Part shown: piece after piece, positions 3 to 31,908 of the stretch | Layout of the letters: every line of letters starts with the position of its first letter | Numbering within the stretch: position 1 is the first letter of the stretch | Source of the DNA: Candidatus Vogelbacteria bacterium RIFOXYD1_FULL_51_18 | GTDB taxonomy: Bacteria > Patescibacteriota > Minisyncoccia > Phycocordibacterales > UBA9988 | Assembly (NCBI GenBank): GCA_001823095.1 | Contig: MHTL01000010.1 | Coordinates: 1-38,943 of the forward strand | Length of the DNA stretch: 38,943 nt | Direction of reading: 5' to 3' | Translations under genes and position numbers: made by a program | The notes under the pieces: generated by a model | Told to the model about the DNA's origin: nothing | What the model saw: only the letters and a program-made list of their open reading frames with translations | Databases searched by the model: none

Positions 3-53
3 GGCTTAGCTAAATTTCTCATTAATTATTACCGCATCCCGCCTGACCGGTGA
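3..53 (+). CDS. C-terminal end of an upstream gene (partial)
   Basis: An open frame enters from the left edge and ends at a TGA at 51-53, giving a tail that ends KFLINYYRIPPDR. The stop lies 18 bases before the MurF-like start, the spacing expected within an operon. Only about 16 residues are visible, so no family can be named, and it may be chance. Confidence 0.35.
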   Translation, partial: GLAKFLINYYRIPPDR

Positions 54-71
54 ATGCATAGGTTCTGACCG

Positions 72-1364
72 ATGAAATCGCTATCTAAAAAATTTATCGT
101 CTCCTGTCTCACACACTGCTCCCGCAGAGTGCTCGCACGCTATGCGCCGAGTGTTGTGGCAATTACCGGGAGCGCGGGCAAGACCTCCACTAAAGATGCG
201 GTGAGAGCAGTACTCGCGCGGCAGTACCGGACGCGCGGAAGCGAAAAAAGCTTTAACAGCGAGTTGGGTGTGCCGCTCACCATCCTCGGACTCGCCAACG
301 CATGGAAGAGCGTCCTTGGATGGTTCGGCAATCTCCTGCGCGCGTTTTTTCTTGCTTACGGCCCGCGAGTAAGGTACCCCGAGTGGCTGGTTCTAGAAGT
401 GGGCGCTGACCGGCCGGGGGACATTACCCGCATTATGCGCTACGTCAAGCCGATCATTGCCATCATTACATGCATTGGTGAGATACCGGTGCATGTGGAG
501 AACTTCCCTACGCCGCGCGACCTTGCGCGCGAAAAGTCTCTGCTCGCCAACGCGCTCCCCGAGAATGGGATGCTTATTCTTAACGCCGATGACAATACGG
601 TAAGCGGCATGGGTGCCGCGCACAAGGGGCCGCTCTTGCGCTACGGATTTTCCGAGGGCGCAGACGTGCGCGCTTCTCATACCCAGATTATGTACGAGGG
701 CAACCGCCCCGTAGGACTTACACTGAAGGTTGATGCGATTGGAAAGAGTATTCCCTTGCGGCTACCGGACACCTTTGGAGAGCACAATGTGGGTGCGGCG
801 CTTGCCGCTCTTGCCGTGGGGATAACGACGCACATTAATCCTCTGCGCTGTGCCGAAGCGCTCCAGACACTCGTCCCGCCGCGCGGGCGCCTGCGCCTGA
901 TTGACGGGGTGAAAGGCACGCTCATTTTAGATGACTCCTACAATGCCTCGCCCGTGGCGGTTATTGCCGCATTGGACACTGTGGAAAAATTACGCGTGGA
1001 GGGAAGGAAGATCTCTATCCTCGGTGATATGATGGAGCTGGGCGTGTATGCGCCGGAGGCGCACCGCGCGGTGGGCAAGCGCGCGGCAAAAGTGCTTGAT
1101 GCGCTCTATCTTGTGGGAACGCGGGCAAAATTTATCGGCGAAGGGGCGCGAGAAGAGGGGATGGCAACTACCAAAATTAAAACTTTTGACGAGTCTGCGG
1201 CGGCAGGGAGAGCGTTGGAGTACGATTTGAAAAGCGGTGATCTCATACTCGTAAAGGGCTCGCAGTATGTGCGCATGGAACGGGCGATTTACGAGATTAT
1301 GGCAGAGCCCTCTCGCGCGTCAGAACTTTTAGTGAGGCAGGAAGAGGAATGGAAAAAGCGCTAA
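72..1364 (+). CDS. murF: MurF-like Mur ligase (UDP-MurNAc-tripeptide:D-Ala-D-Ala ligase type)
   Basis: ATP-dependent amide ligase of peptidoglycan precursor synthesis; canonical MurF adds D-Ala-D-Ala to UDP-MurNAc-tripeptide in the cytoplasm. Seen: P-loop GSAGKTST (G33-T40), FNSELGVPLT after it, LEVGADRPGDI, the NADD and DDSYNASP motifs of the central domain, and a C-terminal domain with LGDMMELG and KGSQYVRME. At 430 residues the total is near the usual MurF length, but the P-loop comes at residue 33 rather than about 100, so the N-terminal UDP-sugar-binding domain is essentially absent, while a hydrophobic stretch of about 30 residues (around 82-112) is inserted after the FNSELGVPLT strand. 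Family assignment is firm; exact substrate is less sure. Confidence 0.85.
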   Translation: MKSLSKKFIVSCLTHCSRRVLARYAPSVVAITGSAGKTSTKDAVRAVLARQYRTRGSEKSFNSELGVPLTILGLANAWKSVLGWFGNLLRAFFLAYGPRVRYPEWLVLEVGADRPGDITRIMRYVKPIIAIITCIGEIPVHVENFPTPRDLAREKSLLANALPENGMLILNADDNTVSGMGAAHKGPLLRYGFSEGADVRASHTQIMYEGNRPVGLTLKVDAIGKSIPLRLPDTFGEHNVGAALAALAVGITTHINPLRCAEALQTLVPPRGRLRLIDGVKGTLILDDSYNASPVAVIAALDTVEKLRVEGRKISILGDMMELGVYAPEAHRAVGKRAAKVLDALYLVGTRAKFIGEGAREEGMATTKIKTFDESAAAGRALEYDLKSGDLILVKGSQYVRMERAIYEIMAEPSRASELLVRQEEEWKKR

Positions 1365-1400
1365 AAAACACCGAATCATCCTCACCTGTCAATGTAATAA

Positions 1401-1553
1401 AAATATGACGGCCGTCTTGAAATTATTACGGACAATGTGAATTATTGCACACAGAAAAATATCCAGACCGCAGTCTGGCATAAAAAAGAGAGTATCAAAA
1501 GCAAAAGATGGAAGAGTGGAGATGCTATTGAAAAGTTACTTAAAAATGGGTAG
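1401..1553 (+). pseudogene. Start-less coding-like fragment
   Basis: From a TAA just upstream, a frame runs open for 50 codons to a TAG at 1551-1553. The translation (KYDGRLEIITDNVNYCTQKN onward, ending in LLKNG) reads like protein, but there is no ATG/GTG with a ribosome site at its head. A small hairpin (CCAGAC-cgca-GTCTGG, 1463-1478) lies in it, and its last codons overlap the tRNA promoter. It may be the 3' remnant of a decayed gene or chance. This and the flanking noncoding bases fill the gap between the MurF-like gene and the tRNA. Confidence 0.25.
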
Positions 1554-1556
1554 GAT
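1528..1556 (+). promoter_or_regulatory. Promoter of tRNA-Glu
   Basis: TTGAAA (1528-1533), 17-base spacer, TAGGAT (1551-1556). The tRNA begins 8 bases after the -10 box, so transcription would start almost at the mature 5' end. Confidence 0.6.
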
Positions 1557-1563
1557 AGGTCAC

Positions 1564-1635
1564 GGCGCATTCGTCTAGCGGTTAGGACATCACCCTCTCA
1601 CGGTGGGAACACGGGTTCGAGTCCCGTATGCGTCA
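1564..1635 (+). tRNA. tRNA-Glu (anticodon CTC)
   Basis: A 72-base cloverleaf. Acceptor stem GGCGCAT pairs with ATGCGTC (one G-U), D arm GTC...GAC, anticodon stem TCACC/GGTGG enclosing loop CTCTCAC with anticodon CTC, four-base variable loop, T arm ACGGG-TTCGAGT-CCCGT, and discriminator A. The CCA end is not encoded. It reads GAG codons. Confidence 0.95.
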
Positions 1636-1655
1636 TAGTTTCTTCCCTAGGAAGC

Positions 1656-1684
1656 TTGACATCCACCACAAGCCGCGGTAACAT
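1656..1684 (+). promoter_or_regulatory. Strong sigma70-type promoter with no gene directly behind it
   Basis: TTGACA (1656-1661), a 17-base spacer and TAACAT (1679-1684) form a near-consensus promoter. The predicted start is about 1691, only some 20 bases before an intrinsic terminator at 1711-1748, so the transcript would be about 55-60 nt unless the terminator is read through into the gene at 1838. Confidence 0.6.
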
Positions 1685-1710
1685 ACTTATCAGCAGCGTC
1701 AAACTTATTG

Positions 1711-1748
1711 GCCCGGGTTGGATAGCCTCCTCTCCCGGGCATTTTTTT
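1711..1748 (+). terminator. Intrinsic terminator or attenuator
   Basis: GCCCGGG (1711-1717) pairs with CCCGGGC (1734-1740) across a 16-nt loop, followed by a run of seven T (1742-1748). The loop contains CCTCCT, the complement of a strong Shine-Dalgarno sequence. A second short hairpin (CCGCA/TGCGG) follows. Confidence 0.75.
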
Positions 1749-1773
1749 ATCCGCAGGAATCTTTGCGGCGCTA

Positions 1774-1802
1774 TTGCGACCATAGGCGGCATGCGCTACA
1801 CT
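1774..1802 (+). promoter_or_regulatory. Probable promoter of the small membrane protein gene
   Basis: TTGCGA (1774-1779), 17-base spacer, TACACT (1797-1802), about 35 bases before the ATG at 1838. The match is moderate. Confidence 0.4.
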
Positions 1803-1837
1803 TTTACTACTATCAGCTAACAGTTAATTGTATCAAC

Positions 1838-2197
1838 ATGCAACAGCATCTACTTCGCGGGGGACTCTGGGGGCTTGGCTACGGCGCATTTATTTTTTTC
1901 ATTATTGTGCTCTACAACAACCTGCAGGTTCTCTTTGCCATCCCGCTCATGTTCCTCTCTAAAGTCGGCATCTCGGGCGCAATGACGCTTTACCAAAACT
2001 CAATCCGGACTCCGCGTGGCCTCCTCATGCTCCTCGGGATAACTTCTCTTATCTATGGGCTTATCGGCGGTCTCGTGTATGGAGCGCTCCGCGCCAAAGA
2101 CTATTCACGCACACATGCTCTTCGCTGGACCATCGGCATTCTTGTTATTATTGCAATCATCCTCCTCGTCATCTCCTTTAAGCTGCCGGTTGCGTAA
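1838..2197 (+). CDS. Small four-helix membrane protein, unknown function
   Basis: About 119 residues beginning MQQHLLRGGLWGLGYG. I chose this ATG because the longer open frame runs back through the terminator at 1711-1748. Roughly four hydrophobic segments are visible (near residues 10-25, 32-50, 65-85 and 98-115), joined by short polar loops such as KDYSRTHALRW; there is no signal peptidase site. No Shine-Dalgarno is obvious. It ends 12 bases before the Nramp-like gene, so the two are probably cotranscribed and it could be an accessory subunit of the transporter (inference). Family not recognised. Confidence 0.7.
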   Translation: MQQHLLRGGLWGLGYGAFIFFIIVLYNNLQVLFAIPLMFLSKVGISGAMTLYQNSIRTPRGLLMLLGITSLIYGLIGGLVYGALRAKDYSRTHALRWTIGILVIIAIILLVISFKLPVA

Positions 2198-2209
2198 GGA
2201 AAAGGACTC

Positions 2210-3613
2210 ATGTCCCGCTGGAGCGCCCTCCACACCCGTGAATTGCCCCCGCCATCGGGGCTTACTCGAATGCTTGGTGTTGGCGTCATTGTCATGGGTA
2301 TGGCGATGGGCACCGGCGAGCTCATCCTCTGGCCGCACCTAGTGAGCAAATTTGGGCTCGGTATCCTCTGGCTCGCTCTTATCGGGCTCGCCCTACAGTA
2401 CTTCATCAACCAAGAGGTTGCTCGGCACACAGCCGCAACGGGAGAGAGTTTCTTTACTTCTTCGGCGCGGCTCATCCACTACATTCCACTTTTCTGGATT
2501 GTCGCAGCCGTCCTCCTCTATGTATGGCCGGGCTGGGCAAGCGCGCTGGGCACCATCCTCGCGCGGCTTTTTGGTTTTGGCTCTTATCTTATCTGGAGCT
2601 GGCTCTCGCTCGCGCTGGTGCTGATTATTACTTTCAGCGGCCGCACAGCCTACCATGTGCTGGAACGGGCGCTTAAAATTATCGTGCCGCTCTTTCTCTT
2701 GCTTCTTTTGATAGTAAGCTATCACAACCTCACACCGGGAGTGTTGTTGGAAGCGCTCAAAGGACTCGTAAACATTGGCTATATCCCTGAAGGCATAGAT
2801 ATGAACGTGCTCCTCGGCGCCATCGTCTTTGCGGGAGCAGGCGGGATGCTCAACCTTGCCACCTCCCTGTGGTACCGCGACAAAGGGCTCGGCATGGCGC
2901 ACTATGTGGGGCGCATCACCAATCCCATCACCGGCGCCCCCGAGGCAGTGACTGTAACCGGGCAGGACTTTCACATTACGGAAGAATCCCTTGCGCGCTG
3001 GAGAGGATGGATGCGCTATGTGCGCATTGACCAAGGACTCATCTTTTTCACCCTCGGGCTGATTTCCCTCGTTCTCCTCTCCGTTAATGCCTACGTGGTG
3101 CTCACGCCCTTGGGTATTGTGCCGGAGGGAACCAATGTCGCCGTTGCGCAGGCGGAGATTTTTGCCGCGCAGTGGGGCGCGCTGGGAGAGAAGCTTTACC
3201 TCCTTATGGCCTACCTGATGCTTTTCTCCGTCATGTGGACAGTTATTGACGCGCTCACGCGCATCATTACGGACATTGTGCACACCAACGCGCGCGAAGG
3301 AGCCCTGCGCGAGCAGTTCCGCTGGATGAATTCTATCTCCATCCACCACCTCTACTATGGTCTTATCGTGTGCATCGTTTTTATCCAGGCGCTCCTTCTG
3401 CCTTTCAATCAACCGCTGCCCTTCCTAGTGCTCTCCTCCGCGCTTGGGGGTATTACCATGGCGCTTTACACGCCGCTCTTGCTCTACCTTAATCTTTTTA
3501 AGCTCCCCTGGCCCCTGCGGCCCGGGATTATAACGATTTGTGCACTTCTTGCCGGCACCCTATTTTACGCATTCTTTGCATTTCAGAGTATCTCCGCTAC
3601 AATAGGAGGGTGA
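2210..3613 (+). CDS. Nramp-family-related membrane transporter with altered metal site
   Basis: Polytopic inner-membrane protein of 467 residues with about 11-12 hydrophobic segments. The first helix region (LGVGVIVMGMAMGTGELIL) and what follows (KFGLGILW, then NQEVARHTAATGES) align in pattern with Nramp (SLC11) metal transporters. The metal-binding DPGN of helix 1 is replaced by GTGE, and the helix-6 MPH motif by a glycine/alanine-rich stretch (VFAGAGGMLN). In known Nramp proteins these residues bind Mn/Fe, so the substrate here is uncertain. The ATG at 2210 has a purine-rich AAGGAAAAGG upstream. It overlaps no gene but ends 8 bases before the GH18 start. Confidence 0.7.
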   Translation: MSRWSALHTRELPPPSGLTRMLGVGVIVMGMAMGTGELILWPHLVSKFGLGILWLALIGLALQYFINQEVARHTAATGESFFTSSARLIHYIPLFWIVAAVLLYVWPGWASALGTILARLFGFGSYLIWSWLSLALVLIITFSGRTAYHVLERALKIIVPLFLLLLLIVSYHNLTPGVLLEALKGLVNIGYIPEGIDMNVLLGAIVFAGAGGMLNLATSLWYRDKGLGMAHYVGRITNPITGAPEAVTVTGQDFHITEESLARWRGWMRYVRIDQGLIFFTLGLISLVLLSVNAYVVLTPLGIVPEGTNVAVAQAEIFAAQWGALGEKLYLLMAYLMLFSVMWTVIDALTRIITDIVHTNAREGALREQFRWMNSISIHHLYYGLIVCIVFIQALLLPFNQPLPFLVLSSALGGITMALYTPLLLYLNLFKLPWPLRPGIITICALLAGTLFYAFFAFQSISATIGG

Positions 3614-3621
3614 GGTATCAA

Positions 3622-4659
3622 GTGTTAAGAGAGCAAAACACCGAGTGTTTAAGGATTTCAACACTCGGTGTTTGCTCGCTAATTGCCATTGTGTTGTTGC
3701 TCATGCCAACAGCGCGCGCTTCGGCGTTTACACGCTTATTCTATGCTAATCATGGGTCTACTTCGGCGCAATCTTTTGCGGCGCATGCAGATAAGGTGGA
3801 TATTATTGCGCCGCAATCCTACTCCTTTGATATCAACGGCACTGTCAGTGGCGCCGTGCCGGAAGCGCTACTGAAGACTGCTCGAGAGAAGGGAATTAAA
3901 ATCATGCCGCTTATTACCAATGGCGCCTTTAATAATCGCATCGCTACCCGCATCATGCGCAACCAGCAGGTGCAGAACTATTTAATTTTCCAACTCATCG
4001 TTATTGCCAAGCGCGAGGGCTTTATGGGCTGGCAATTAGATATGGAGAACATGAATATGAGCCACCGCGAGCGCTACGCGCTCTTTGTGGAAAAAGCTGC
4101 ACGTGCGCTCCATGCGCAAGGACTTCAACTAAGCGTTGCTGTGGTCTCACAAGTATCCGCAAATCCTGCCGATCATCCGCCACACTCCTGGGAGGAGTGG
4201 GCGGGCGTCTACGACTACGCGCGCTTGGGAAAGGCGGCGGACTTTATTTCCATCATGACCTACGACGACGGGTCTGGAGCGGGGCCGGTTGCCCCCTTGC
4301 CGTGGGTGCGGCAGGTGCTCGCGCACGCTCGAACGCAGATGCCGGTAGAAAAAATCTCTCTTGGCATTCCTGCTTACCACTGGGAGTGGACGGTGAGAGG
4401 GCACTTTAAAATCAGCTCTGGCGGCTACCGCTACGTTTCCAATATCCTTGCCAGTTCCAGTAATCCGCGCGGTTATGATGAAAAACTGGGAGCGCAGTGG
4501 GTGCGCTATAACACCAAGCGCGGCGATGAGCACATTGTGTGGTACGAGGACGCGCGCAGTATGGGGGAGAAAATCAAACTCGCAAAAGACAATAACCTTG
4601 CCGGCTTCTCACTCTGGGTGATCGGGCTTGAAGATCCCGCACTCTGGGATACACTATAG
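3622..4659 (+). CDS. Secreted glycoside hydrolase family 18-type protein
   Basis: Probably an exported wall- or glycan-active hydrolase related to the YaaH/SleL group of GH18. With a GTG start at 3622 (AGGAGGG 11 bases upstream) the protein is 345 residues: a signal peptide with hydrophobic core LGVCSLIAIVLLLM and cleavage motif ARASA near residue 35, then a TIM-barrel. The catalytic strand reads GWQLDME (D140, E142), matching the GH18 DxxDxDxE end with Glu as acid/base; the IMTYDD strand (212-216) and the final FSLWVIGLED strand also match. The N-region of the signal peptide (NTECLRISTLGV) is encoded by a palindromic repeat. The longer frame reaching back to 3538 would overlap the transporter gene and lose the signal peptide. 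Confidence 0.8.
   Translation: MLREQNTECLRISTLGVCSLIAIVLLLMPTARASAFTRLFYANHGSTSAQSFAAHADKVDIIAPQSYSFDINGTVSGAVPEALLKTAREKGIKIMPLITNGAFNNRIATRIMRNQQVQNYLIFQLIVIAKREGFMGWQLDMENMNMSHRERYALFVEKAARALHAQGLQLSVAVVSQVSANPADHPPHSWEEWAGVYDYARLGKAADFISIMTYDDGSGAGPVAPLPWVRQVLAHARTQMPVEKISLGIPAYHWEWTVRGHFKISSGGYRYVSNILASSSNPRGYDEKLGAQWVRYNTKRGDEHIVWYEDARSMGEKIKLAKDNNLAGFSLWVIGLEDPALWDTL
3636..3673. repeat. Palindromic element pair inside the signal peptide of the GH18-type gene
   Basis: AACACCGAGTGTT (3637-3649) and AACACTCGGTGTT (3660-3672) form 14-bp arms around a 10-nt centre. Each half is itself a palindrome of the AACAY-YCG-RTGTT family found elsewhere in the window. It is translated as NTECLRISTLGV. 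Confidence 0.8.
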
Positions 4660-5681: not shown

Positions 5682-6035
5682 ATGGCATTTGCAGTAATTA
5701 AAACAGGAGGCAAGCAGTATGTGGCCCGGGAAGGGGAGACCTTGACGATTGAACGCTTGAAAGTCGGGAGTCCGACTTCCGCAGTCTCCGAAGTCGGACT
5801 CCCCCTTAAAAAAGGGGGTACAGTTACTTTTGATGAAGTGCTCCTCGTATCAGACGGGGGCATGCTCGTCCTTGGCGCGCCTATGGTGGAGGGGAAGAGT
5901 GTGACCGCAACCTTTGAGCGCGAAATCCGCGAGCCGAAAAAAATCACCTACAAGTACAAGCCTAAGGCCCGCACGCGCGTCAAGCGCGGCTCCCGCCAGA
6001 TCAAGGCGGTAGTAAAGATTTCCACAGTTTCGTAA
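5682..6035 (+). CDS. rplU: Ribosomal protein bL21 with in-frame palindromic insert
   Basis: Large-subunit protein binding 23S rRNA. The start MAFAVIKTGGKQY and DEVLLV...GAPMVEG, then a basic KKITYKYKPKARTRVKRGSRQ tail, are typical. At 117 residues it is about 14 longer than the usual 103. The excess lies exactly at residues 29-41 (GSPTSAVSEVGLP), between the ERL strand and GGTVTFDEVLLV, and is encoded by the 38-bp palindrome at 5766-5803. In known bL21 structures this region is a surface loop. rpmA, normally the next gene, is instead at 13170 on the other strand. A terminator follows at 6034. Confidence 0.95.
   Translation: MAFAVIKTGGKQYVAREGETLTIERLKVGSPTSAVSEVGLPLKKGGTVTFDEVLLVSDGGMLVLGAPMVEGKSVTATFEREIREPKKITYKYKPKARTRVKRGSRQIKAVVKISTVS
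5766..5803. repeat. 38-bp palindromic element in rplU (14-10-14)
   Basis: GGGAGTCCGACTTC (5766-5779) and GAAGTCGGACTCCC (5790-5803) are perfect inverted arms with a 10-nt centre. Read in frame as GSPTSAVSEVGLP. Same geometry, arm core and frame as the element in recR. Confidence 0.9.
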
Positions 6036-6391: not shown

Positions 6392-7048
6392 TTACTCCCG
6401 ATGCTTGAGCGCCTCTTGGATAGTCTCGTCATCCGAGTACTCCAGCTCCGTGCCCGTTGAAAGTCCGCGCCCCAACGCGGTGATTTGTATGTGGTGTTTT
6501 TTTGCCAAAGGCTCCAAGAGTAGCCGCAAATACTCGCCCGTGTGGTCTCCTTGCGGCGTTGCCGAGAGCGCTAGGATAGTCTCCGAGAGCCCCTCTCGCG
6601 CCAGCGCTTCTACTCGCGCAAGGAGGAGCGCCCCCCGTATGCGCAGCTCCGGATTTTTCTCCAGAATTGGGATACTGCCGCCAAGCACAAAGTAGTGCCC
6701 CCGGTATGCACCCGTTTTCCTCACATTTTCCAAGTCCGCATCTTTTTCAATCAAGAGGAGCTGGGTAGTATCCCTGTCTTCATCACTGCAGAGGTCACAC
6801 AAATCAGGAAGTCGGACTTCGGGGGCGGAGGAAGTCCGACTTCCGATTTTGTGATGCCGTATAAAATATCGCTGGCACGCACTACACTGCGCAATGTCCC
6901 TACCTAGATCCGTAATGAGTCGCGCAAGCTCGGCGCGCTCGGCAGGGGAGAGCGCCAGCAGGTGGTAGACAAAGCGCCGCGCCTGCCGCGCGCCGATGCC
7001 GGGGAAGTGCATGAAGAGGTCAGAGAGGCGATGGAAGCTCCCGGTCAT
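6392..7048 (-). CDS. recR: Recombination protein RecR with insertion in its zinc finger
   Basis: RecR acts with RecO/RecF in loading RecA at gaps. Seen: N-terminal helix-hairpin-helix (FMHFPGIGARQARRFVYHLL), four-Cys zinc motif C55-x2-C58 ... C84-x2-C87, and Toprim domain (IEKDADLENVRKTGAYRGHY, then VLGG and ATPQGDHTGEYL). Length is 218 against about 198-200 usually. The extra residues fall between the two Cys pairs, which here are separated by 25 residues instead of roughly 8-11; residues 69-81 (GSRTSSAPEVRLP) come from a palindromic element. The gene ends next to a terminator and starts 2 bases after the dnaB stop, so it is cotranscribed with dnaB. Confidence 0.95.
   Translation of the reverse strand: MTGSFHRLSDLFMHFPGIGARQARRFVYHLLALSPAERAELARLITDLGRDIAQCSACQRYFIRHHKIGSRTSSAPEVRLPDLCDLCSDEDRDTTQLLLIEKDADLENVRKTGAYRGHYFVLGGSIPILEKNPELRIRGALLLARVEALAREGLSETILALSATPQGDHTGEYLRLLLEPLAKKHHIQITALGRGLSTGTELEYSDDETIQEALKHRE
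6807..6844. repeat. 38-bp palindromic element in recR (14-10-14)
   Basis: GGAAGTCGGACTTC (6807-6820) and GAAGTCCGACTTCC (6831-6844) are perfect inverted arms around a 10-nt GC-rich centre. On the coding strand it gives GSRTSSAPEVRLP, the counterpart of GSPTSAVSEVGLP in rplU. Confidence 0.9.
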
Positions 7049-12673: not shown

Positions 12674-13126
12674 ATGCGCATAATACTCCTGCGCAACGTG
12701 CAAAAACTGGGGAAAAAGTATGACATTAAAGATGTTGCTGACGGCTACGCGAGAAATTTTTTAATCACGCGCGGTCTCGCCAAATATGCGACGCGCAATG
12801 CGGAAGCGGAAGCAGAGAAGCTCCGTGCCACCCTAGAAAATAGGGGAGAGGCACAAGAGGCGCTCTTGGAAAAAGAGCTAGCGGAACTTGCGGGGAAGAC
12901 GGTCAGCATCAAACGTCCCGCGAACGATAAGGGTCATCTCTTTTCGCAAATACATCCAGAGGATATTGCTGAAGTAATCGCACACGATATAGGCATCACG
13001 TTAAAAGCAGAGCATCTTGTTCTCTCCGAGCCCATAAAAACACTTGGCGCGCATACAATAGAAGTTGCCGTACGAGATCACCACACGACCATTACCATTA
13101 TTGTCGAGAAAACATCGGATGTTTAA
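12674..13126 (+). CDS. rplI: Ribosomal protein bL9
   Basis: Large-subunit protein near the L1 stalk. [20 protein letters not shown] starts the N-terminal rRNA-binding domain, followed by [17 protein letters not shown], the long connecting helix and a C-terminal domain ([16 protein letters not shown]). About 150 residues, normal. I prefer the ATG at 12674 to the one at 12662 because bL9 begins at this Met and 12662 overlaps the protease stop. The final codons (TSDV) and TAA are supplied by a palindromic repeat. L9 is reported missing from some CPR lineages, so its presence narrows placement. Confidence 0.95.
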
Positions 13127-13165
13127 GATCCCAACATCCGATGTTTAAATTCAACACTCGGTGTT
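13111..13165. repeat. Cluster of three AACAY-YCG-RTGTT palindromes at the rplI/rpmA junction
   Basis: AACATCGGATGTT (13111-13123), AACATCCGATGTT (13133-13145) and AACACTCGGTGTT (13153-13165). The first two pair into a 13-14-bp hairpin that overlaps the rplI stop (13124-13126). As the only spacer between convergent rplI and rpmA it probably acts as terminator too. Confidence 0.8.
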
Positions 13166-13450: not shown

Positions 13451-13810
13451 ATGGTAACAAAAGAGGGGAGCATTGGCAAGATATTTATAGACCGCGCGTT
13501 TGCGCCCCTCCTCATCATCCTTGTGGGAGTATCTGCTTACGGATTGGGGCGATTGAATAATATACGGAGCAACGCTGAACCAGTAACAATTAATACACCA
13601 TCCGAAGTCGGACCCGCCACGGCGGGTCCGACTTCCACAAGCACAAAAGAGGGGAAGGTAGTCGCTTCCAAGAATGGCAGCAAATACCATCTCTCCACCT
13701 GCCCCGGCGCGGGACAGATAAAAGAGGAAAACAAAATTTGGTTCGAGAGCGCCGCCGCGGCAGTGGCGGCAGGATACACTTCCGCCGCAAATTGCCCGGG
13801 ATTAAAGTAA
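13451..13810 (+). CDS. Membrane-anchored protein with Ada-like metal-binding domain
   Basis: 119 residues: one helix ([18 protein letters not shown], about 18-35), a Ser/Thr-rich linker, and a C-terminal domain [20 protein letters not shown] ... [21 protein letters not shown]. The arrangement of H80, C84 and C115 and the final IW/GY segments resembles the small metal-binding domain of Ada-type proteins often found alone behind a membrane anchor; the domain would lie outside the cell. Function unknown. Residues 52-62 of the linker ([11 protein letters not shown]) are encoded by a palindromic element. Confidence 0.75.
13604..13635. repeat. Palindromic element in the linker of the Ada-like domain protein (15-2-15)
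   Basis: GAAGTCGGACCCGCC (13604-13618), centre ac, GGCGGGTCCGACTTC (13621-13635). It shares the GAAGTCGGAC/GTCCGACTTC arm ends with the elements in rplU and recR and uses the same reading frame for them (GAA GTC and ACT TCC codons). Confidence 0.85.
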
Positions 13811-16949: not shown

Positions 16950-18261
16950 AGGCAATGCGGGCAAGCGTTTCTTCTTTGCCGAGGAGCTCGGCGACAACAA
17001 AAGGGTCCGGGGAGCGCTCAAGACCGGTAAGCGCAATGCGCAGGGGCCAGAGTACATTCCCCCTTCCCTTCTCGGTCGCAAAGTCCCAGAGGCGCTCTTT
17101 AATCTGCGCGGCCTTGAAATCAGGTTCAGAAACTTGTTCTAAAATGCCGCGCACGCGCGGGAGAAATTCAATCGTCTTCAGAAGCGCCCGGCTGGGTTTT
17201 GTATAATTTCGGACAAACGAGAGCTCACCGCCATTGCCTATAAGCGTAGGGGTATCAGCGAGCGTTGTGATGCGCTCGCGGATGAGCGGGAGGAGCTTCG
17301 CCAGTATTGCAGGACTTTGTTCAGGCATTCGTGCTGTAAGCGCATTAAGAAGCTCATCATCCAAGAGTGTCTTCATGTATTCGCGGTTAAACCACTTAAG
17401 CTTATCTGCGGAGAACATAGCGCCACTCTTCTGCACCTTTGAAAGATTGAAGCGTCCAACTAATTCGGGGAGAGAAAAAATTTCCCGCTCCGGCTCCCCT
17501 TCTCCCTGCGACGACCAGCCAATGAGCGCGAGGAAGTTGACAAGGGCTTCAGGGAGGTAGCCCTGCTTGCGGTACTCGGTTATAGCAACTGCTCCGTGGC
17601 GCTTGGAGAGTTTGCTCTTGTCGGGCGCAAGGATGAGCGGGATGTGCGCGTAGCGCCACTCGGGCACGCCAAGAGCGCGGGCAATGAGAAGCTGACGCGG
17701 CGTGTTTGAGATGCCGTCCTCACCGCGGATGATATGGGTTACCCCCATGAGCATGTCATCCACCACCACGGCAAGGTGGTAAAGGGGCGTCTCACGGTTC
17801 TTAGCAATTACAAAATCGCCGAGCTCTGTGACGTCAAAGCTGATTTCGCCGCGTATCTCGTCATGGAAGCTCACTATCCCACCGGAGTTCTTGAAGCGGA
17901 TGACAGAAGGACGGAAGTGAGGTCCGCCAAGGCGGATATCACTTCCGTCTTCATCCTCCATAGACTCGTACGCCGCGCCATTTGTAATGAGTTTTTCAAT
18001 ATGGTCCCTGTAGACCGCGCCGCGCTCGCTCTGGCGATAGAACTCGTCGTAGTCAATCCCGAGCCAGTCCAAGCCGTCAATAATGTTCTCTTCGTATTCC
18101 TTTTTTGAACGTTCAGAGTCAGTGTCCTCAATGCGCAGAATAAGCTTGCCTCCCTGCTGTTTGGCAAAGAGGTAGTTAAAAAGCGCCGTCCGCGCGCTCC
18201 CCACATGAAAAGGCCCTGTGGGCGAAGGCGAAAACCGCGTGACTACATGTTGAGGCGCCAT
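16930..18261 (-). CDS. gltX: Glutamyl-tRNA synthetase
   Basis: Class I synthetase charging tRNA-Glu (and possibly tRNA-Gln). Seen: TRFSPSPTGPFHVGSARTAL (HVGS-type HIGH motif), LRIEDTDSERS, HIIRGEDGISNTPRQL and KSKLSKRHGA, then a helical anticodon-binding half. At 443 residues it is shorter than the usual 470-490. The shortening includes the region after GAAYES, where residues 106-117 (GSDIRLGGPHFR) are encoded by an imperfect palindrome instead of the longer segment that normally precedes VIRFK. It has its own leaderless promoter and a terminator separates it from murG. Confidence 0.96.
   Translation of the reverse strand: MAPQHVVTRFSPSPTGPFHVGSARTALFNYLFAKQQGGKLILRIEDTDSERSKKEYEENIIDGLDWLGIDYDEFYRQSERGAVYRDHIEKLITNGAAYESMEDEDGSDIRLGGPHFRPSVIRFKNSGGIVSFHDEIRGEISFDVTELGDFVIAKNRETPLYHLAVVVDDMLMGVTHIIRGEDGISNTPRQLLIARALGVPEWRYAHIPLILAPDKSKLSKRHGAVAITEYRKQGYLPEALVNFLALIGWSSQGEGEPEREIFSLPELVGRFNLSKVQKSGAMFSADKLKWFNREYMKTLLDDELLNALTARMPEQSPAILAKLLPLIRERITTLADTPTLIGNGGELSFVRNYTKPSRALLKTIEFLPRVRGILEQVSEPDFKAAQIKERLWDFATEKGRGNVLWPLRIALTGLERSPDPFVVAELLGKEETLARIAYAQSLA
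17913..17946. repeat. Imperfect palindromic element in gltX (16-2-16)
   Basis: GGAAGTGAGGTCCGCC (17913-17928), centre aa, GGCGGATATCACTTCC (17931-17946), with two mismatched positions. On the coding strand it begins GGA AGT, the same frame as the first half of the recR element, and has the CCGCC-NN-GGCGG core of the 13604 element. Confidence 0.7.
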
Positions 18262-31869: not shown

Positions 31870-31908
31870 ACAAATGGCTCAATGATGGAAGTGAGACTTC
31901 CATTAAAC

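Follow-up and report, generated by a model that had tools for sequence, protein, structure and literature searches.

Rickettsia palindromic elements (RPEs) are about 150 bp long (PMC10969869), and Di Nocera et al. 2013 (PMC3733652) report RPE-4 and RPE-6 to be identical with tagged REPs. The same text describes intragenic dimers of GTAG- or CGTC-tagged REPs, families linked to RAYTs, as coding inserts, the hosts often being DNA repair and tRNA genes (uvrA, uvrB, DNA ligase and tRNA synthetases). REPs are recognized by TnpA-REP (PMC8266576), and REPIN/BIME plus RAYT (TnpA-REP) systems combine an inverted palindrome pair with a Y1/HUH gene bordered by cognate palindromes (PMC8266576, PMC6006769, PMC3116915). 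Inverted repeats within coding genes also occur in Nematomorpha mitochondria, where they reach 284 bp and, in the abstract of PMC6649704, are given no transposase link.

Here we characterize a short palindromic dimer found within recR and rplU of a 38,943-nt stretch of DNA (the window; contig MHTL01000010.1) from Candidatus Vogelbacteria bacterium RIFOXYD1_FULL_51_18. The first-pass annotation had compared this element with RPEs, a comparison that is borne out by in-frame inserts in unrelated protein genes: both are palindromic selfish DNA carried in frame by unrelated metabolic and housekeeping genes. The element measures only 33-40 bp, below the 100-150 bp of RPEs, and likely derives from a RAYT, whereas PMC10969869 gives RPEs no transposase link. 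Like the tagged REPs, it forms dimers that act as coding inserts in repair and tRNA genes. Unlike them, as far as the accessible part of PMC3733652 goes, it lacks the GTAG/CGTC tag, has near-perfect palindromic arms with spacers mostly of 3-14 nt, does not avoid genes and resides in Patescibacteria, which are not among the hosts described there. Classical REPs carry the GTAG tag, lie mostly between genes and number in the hundreds to thousands (PMC8266576, PMC6006769, PMC3116915), none of which holds here. The REP/REPIN features that are present are the short inverted palindrome pair and a RAYT gene (Y1, HUH, Y-x3-NP) in the genome; those absent are a tetranucleotide guide, an extragenic preference in Patescibacteria and high copy number (12 in 634 kb, against often >100). 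We place these elements functionally with RAYT-driven REPINs and RPEs; strict REP membership fails on tag, copy number and extragenic location.

As the first-pass annotation had supposed, no description of such a protein-coding element in Candidate Phyla Radiation (CPR) bacteria was found in the open-access literature. REP dimers inside genes are already published, as are the Rickettsia elements (PMC3733652); what is new is an untagged, CPR-wide coding dimer, which adds the CPR to a phenomenon described for Rickettsia and some other bacteria.

A palindromic dimer inserted in RecR and L21

The element consists of two inverted copies of the 15-bp palindrome GGAAGTCSGACTTCC, each internally palindromic. 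In recR the arms are GGAAGTCGGACTTCG (6807-6821) and GGAAGTCCGACTTCC (6830-6844), separated by an 8-nt spacer, and the translation GSRTSSAPEVRLP is located between CSAC and CDLC. The coordinates, arms and spacer confirm the identical geometry that had been claimed for recR and L21, and the two insert peptides do agree at 9 of 13 positions. Also correct was the placement of the RecR insert between the two Cys pairs. All four Cys are retained. The features of the window are collected in Table 1.

Table 1. Palindromic elements and their host genes in the window
Feature	Position	Strand	Remarks
rplU, ribosomal protein bL21, 117 aa	5682..6035	+	
Palindromic dimer in L21, 38 bp, read GSPTSAVSEVGLP	5766..5803	+	12-aa insertion, 0/29 relatives
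recR, 218 aa	6392..7048	-	Toprim and C-terminal domains intact; about 37-54% identity to relatives
Palindromic dimer in recR, 38 bp (15 + 8 + 15)	6807..6844	-	All four Cys of RecR kept
Third-family dimer AACATCGGATGTT-N9-AACATCCGATGTT	13110..13146	.	Family of RAYT C17:10599-11423; overlaps rplI 3' end
Shorter hairpin version, GAAGTCGGACCCGCC-AC-GGCGGGTCCGACTTC	13604..13635	+	11 residues within 119-aa ORF 13451-13810
Second-family palindrome GGAAGTGAGACTTCC	31887..31901	.	Same family at and in RAYT C17:22955-23617

The presence of this sequence in the window is not due to chance. Allowing ≤3 mismatches, the arm occurs 7 times against 0.88 expected, and 0 of 100 shuffles reach 7. The DNA hairpins of the element have folding energies of -18.6 and -16.3 kcal/mol (z of -8.5 and -6.1).

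In protein comparisons, RecR and L21 each contain 12 extra residues relative to 29/29 genomes of the order, which lack the stretch. This upholds the earlier claim of two insertions, both of which lie in essential genes. The RecR insert occupies the turn that separates the two CxxC pairs, and it is absent, as is that of L21, from solved RecR and L21 chains. AlphaFold modelling of RecR from its single sequence, a check proposed in the first-pass annotation, was uninformative, with a pLDDT of 41, and about 31 in the insert. Judged from sequence, both proteins appear to have gained about 12 amino acids without being visibly destroyed, and we infer that the inserted peptide is tolerated rather than useful. 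It is highly improbable that the insert goes untranslated through ribosomal bypass of the hairpin or its loss from the mRNA. The strong hairpins and an element length of 38 nt, not a multiple of three, would fit such an explanation, but the net insert in both genes is 36 nt, keeps the frame and contains no stops, none of which bypass or splicing would need, and an Rfam search returned no match above threshold.

The family of the source genome contains this genome only. No near relative with an empty site emerged from all-against-all BLAST of the 115 dimer loci listed, orthologous sites being either filled or too divergent, and consequently the element has neither a target-site signature nor exact ends of insertion assigned to it.

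Copies and reading frames in the 634-kb genome

Pattern searches, followed by examination of the stretches around the matches, located 12 dimer-core matches in the 634-kb genome compared with 0 for a reversed-pattern control, in line with the further gene copies that the first-pass annotation had proposed to look for genome-wide. These matches correspond to about 10 elements, as some join neighbouring elements; a few decayed copies come in addition (C14:61540, C11:13515 and C13:18976). Two forms exist, one of 38 bp with a spacer of 8 and another of about 34 bp whose outer stems are longer. The pattern searches did not find thousands of dispersed single half-sites. Hosts include L21, RecR, TsaD, TsaE, a PfkB kinase, a VirD4-like ATPase (two copies), a DUF192 protein, a PKD-domain protein and several unassigned ORFs, with a subset of the ORF-based hosts checked by Pfam. 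The TsaD insertion sits in a linker of variable length and therefore counts for less than those in RecR and L21. A separate imperfect 19-bp inverted repeat inside gltX (window 17910-17949), read as DGSDIRLGGPHFRP, may be another coding insert.

The arms are stop-free in all six frames, which would let genes with in-frame copies keep working. A frame free of KSDF is used by 9/12 gene copies in the genome (nominal p = 0.004, with copies that are few and maybe not independent). The other three are in TsaE (KSDSPRRVRL), PfkB (GSRTRRGESDS) and the second copy in the C11 ATPase. Across Patescibacteria, the 74 arms of 37 copies in ORFs ≥200 aa, among the matches listed, are read as KSDF (32), GSPTS (23) or EVGL (19); all three frames are used, and the distribution is not far from even. 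Selection for one readable frame, as suggested by the first-pass annotation, thus fails as a general rule, given that every frame is stop-free and used, and survives only as the local 9/12 bias. That same bias is what would be expected if the peptide itself were selected as a functional linker or interaction tag. We regard this as improbable, as three frames are in use both in the genome and Patescibacteria-wide, and one and the same RecG site is read as KSDF in two species and as EVGL in another. On the simplest view, stop-free inserts with a suitable net length are tolerated and no one peptide is selected.

Distribution across Patescibacteria and other phyla

Across 84,980 species genomes, a scan detected at least 115 stretches with the dimer. 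Among the matches listed, taxa are mostly Patescibacteria, with some Chloroflexota, Cyanobacteria, Ignavibacteriales, Omnitrophota, Parabacteroides and others, as named in the sequence records. The dimer avoids ORFs in other phyla but not in Patescibacteria, a comparison that rests on ORFs rather than curated genes: among the matches listed, 37/50 patescibacterial copies are in ORFs ≥200 aa (0.74, against 0.74 for random positions), compared with 10/30 copies in other phyla (0.33 against 0.77 expected). This raises the question of why these hosts tolerate the element.

Patescibacterial hosts include uvrA, uvrC, recG, topA, ileS, atpG, murC/D and tgt. Nearly all of the long host ORFs from other Patescibacteria that were tested with Pfam belong to known protein families (19/20), among them UvrA, UvrC, RecG, topoisomerase I, ATP synthase gamma, Mur ligases, IleRS-type synthetases, TatD, RNase HII and TGT. 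For AtpG, TsaE and TGT, the alignment gap relative to solved homologues coincides with the element. The odd inserts KSDF, GSPTS and EVGLP in CPR proteins are explained by this element. The same orthologous site has been reused with differing spacers and frames in RecG (3 species), a cysteine-desulfurase-like protein (3) and IleRS (4). Another IleRS (locus L272, ORF 3-3545) has PFDFAQGKPFANKK at the loop where two Giovannonibacteria have GSPTSKGKSDFL; this may be a coding repeat of unrelated origin that uses the same permissive site.

A short palindromic repeat common to many loci might also be a DNA uptake sequence or a regulator binding site that lies in genes by accident. This is scarcely credible for a dimeric sequence that has about a dozen copies per genome, adds extra DNA inside proteins and is present in just 22/297 genomes of the order. 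Chance, a DNA-uptake sequence, an RNA intron and single-frame selection were set aside.

RAYT genes and the proposed origin of the element

The genome has three genes for RAYT-type (Y1_Tnp) proteins bearing HxH and Y-x3-NP motifs, and each gene has its own palindrome family. RAYT-1 (C12:34128-34802) has the palindrome GACTGAAGTCWGACTTCAGTC beside and inside the gene; GACTGAAGTCAGACTTCAGTC occurs in frame within the RAYT itself (MTGVRLQS) and, upstream, in the adjacent prepilin peptidase gene. The prepilin peptidase gene contains in frame a 25-bp palindrome, TTGACTGAAGTCTGACTTCAGTCAA (G000 C12:33657-33681, locus L030), and a RAYT gene carrying this palindrome lies about 450 bp away. The second RAYT (C17:22955-23617) has GATGGAAGTSWSACTTCCATC at both ends and twice inside, and the third (C17:10599-11423) has CCAACATCSGATGTTGG beside it. 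The third-family dimer of the window seems to provide the last residues (TSDV) of rplI.

RAYT genes are present in 67/118 sampled genomes of the order. Palindromes are found at both ends of 16/49 RAYT loci compared with 0/87 control genes (p = 1e-8), and inside 20/49 RAYT genes compared with 6/87 control genes. Many of the internal palindromes lie close to residues 50-77 and 149-166. One of the three resident palindromes, that of RAYT-1, has the same GAAGTCNGACTTC core as the recR/L21 element; this 13-bp core is common to it and GGAAGTCSGACTTCC save for the central base. Bordering by the same palindrome is seen at the RAYT genes of two relatives, while the genome of the window shares the core only. 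In G145 exactly TCGGAAGTCSGACTTCCGA stands both at the borders of the gene and within it, and in L301 a complete dimer of the same core directly follows the RAYT stop, with a one-arm copy just upstream.

Taken together, repeated insertion in housekeeping genes and palindromes at and inside RAYT genes make it very likely that a RAYT (REP-associated tyrosine transposase) system is the source of the element, a link that the first-pass annotation had not noticed. The element itself is probably a miniature REPIN-like mobile unit, an inverted hairpin pair that a RAYT, a Y1/HUH tyrosine transposase, mobilizes in trans. Against a RAYT source stand the failure to find an empty site in a near relative, the lack of an exact GGAAGTCSGACTTCC dimer bordering any of the three RAYT genes in this genome, a copy number of about a dozen and the lack of a guide tag: GTAG, CTAC, CGTC and GACG are each near only 5-7/127 dimers, and none is constant beside RAYT palindromes. 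Missing exact dimers at the resident RAYTs, along with the decay of several copies, would also suit relics of an absent RAYT or other transposase that were spread or homogenized by recombination while resident RAYTs act on other palindromes. We consider this unlikely, given the near-identical core of the RAYT-1 palindrome and the RAYT genes with the exact core in the two relatives.

In the RAYT-driven mechanism that we infer, the unit would fold on single-stranded DNA while replication runs, the RAYT would cut close to the hairpin feet and the copy would be joined into a new single-stranded site. A copy that adds a net multiple of three nucleotides in a permissive loop would leave the gene working; other insertions would be removed by selection. 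This would point to a likely enzyme and offer a simple rule (short, dimeric, stop-free in every frame) for the entry of selfish palindromes into essential proteins. More tentatively, and with somewhat less than even confidence, we propose that RAYT-driven palindromes of Patescibacteria have lost the gene avoidance of classical REPs, and that very short stop-free dimers repeatedly enter the same permissive loops of essential proteins and are kept there, a continuing lineage-wide source of short insertions in minimal genomes.

Palindromes of other families were observed as well. The window contains a dimer at 3636-3673, AAACACCGAGTGTTTAA / TTCAACACTCGGTGTTT, whose core AACACCGAGTGTT is shared with palindromes that flank a RAYT gene of another genome (L181). 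One small genome (G087, loci L168-L179) has 12 RAYT matches, most of them bordered by different palindromes.
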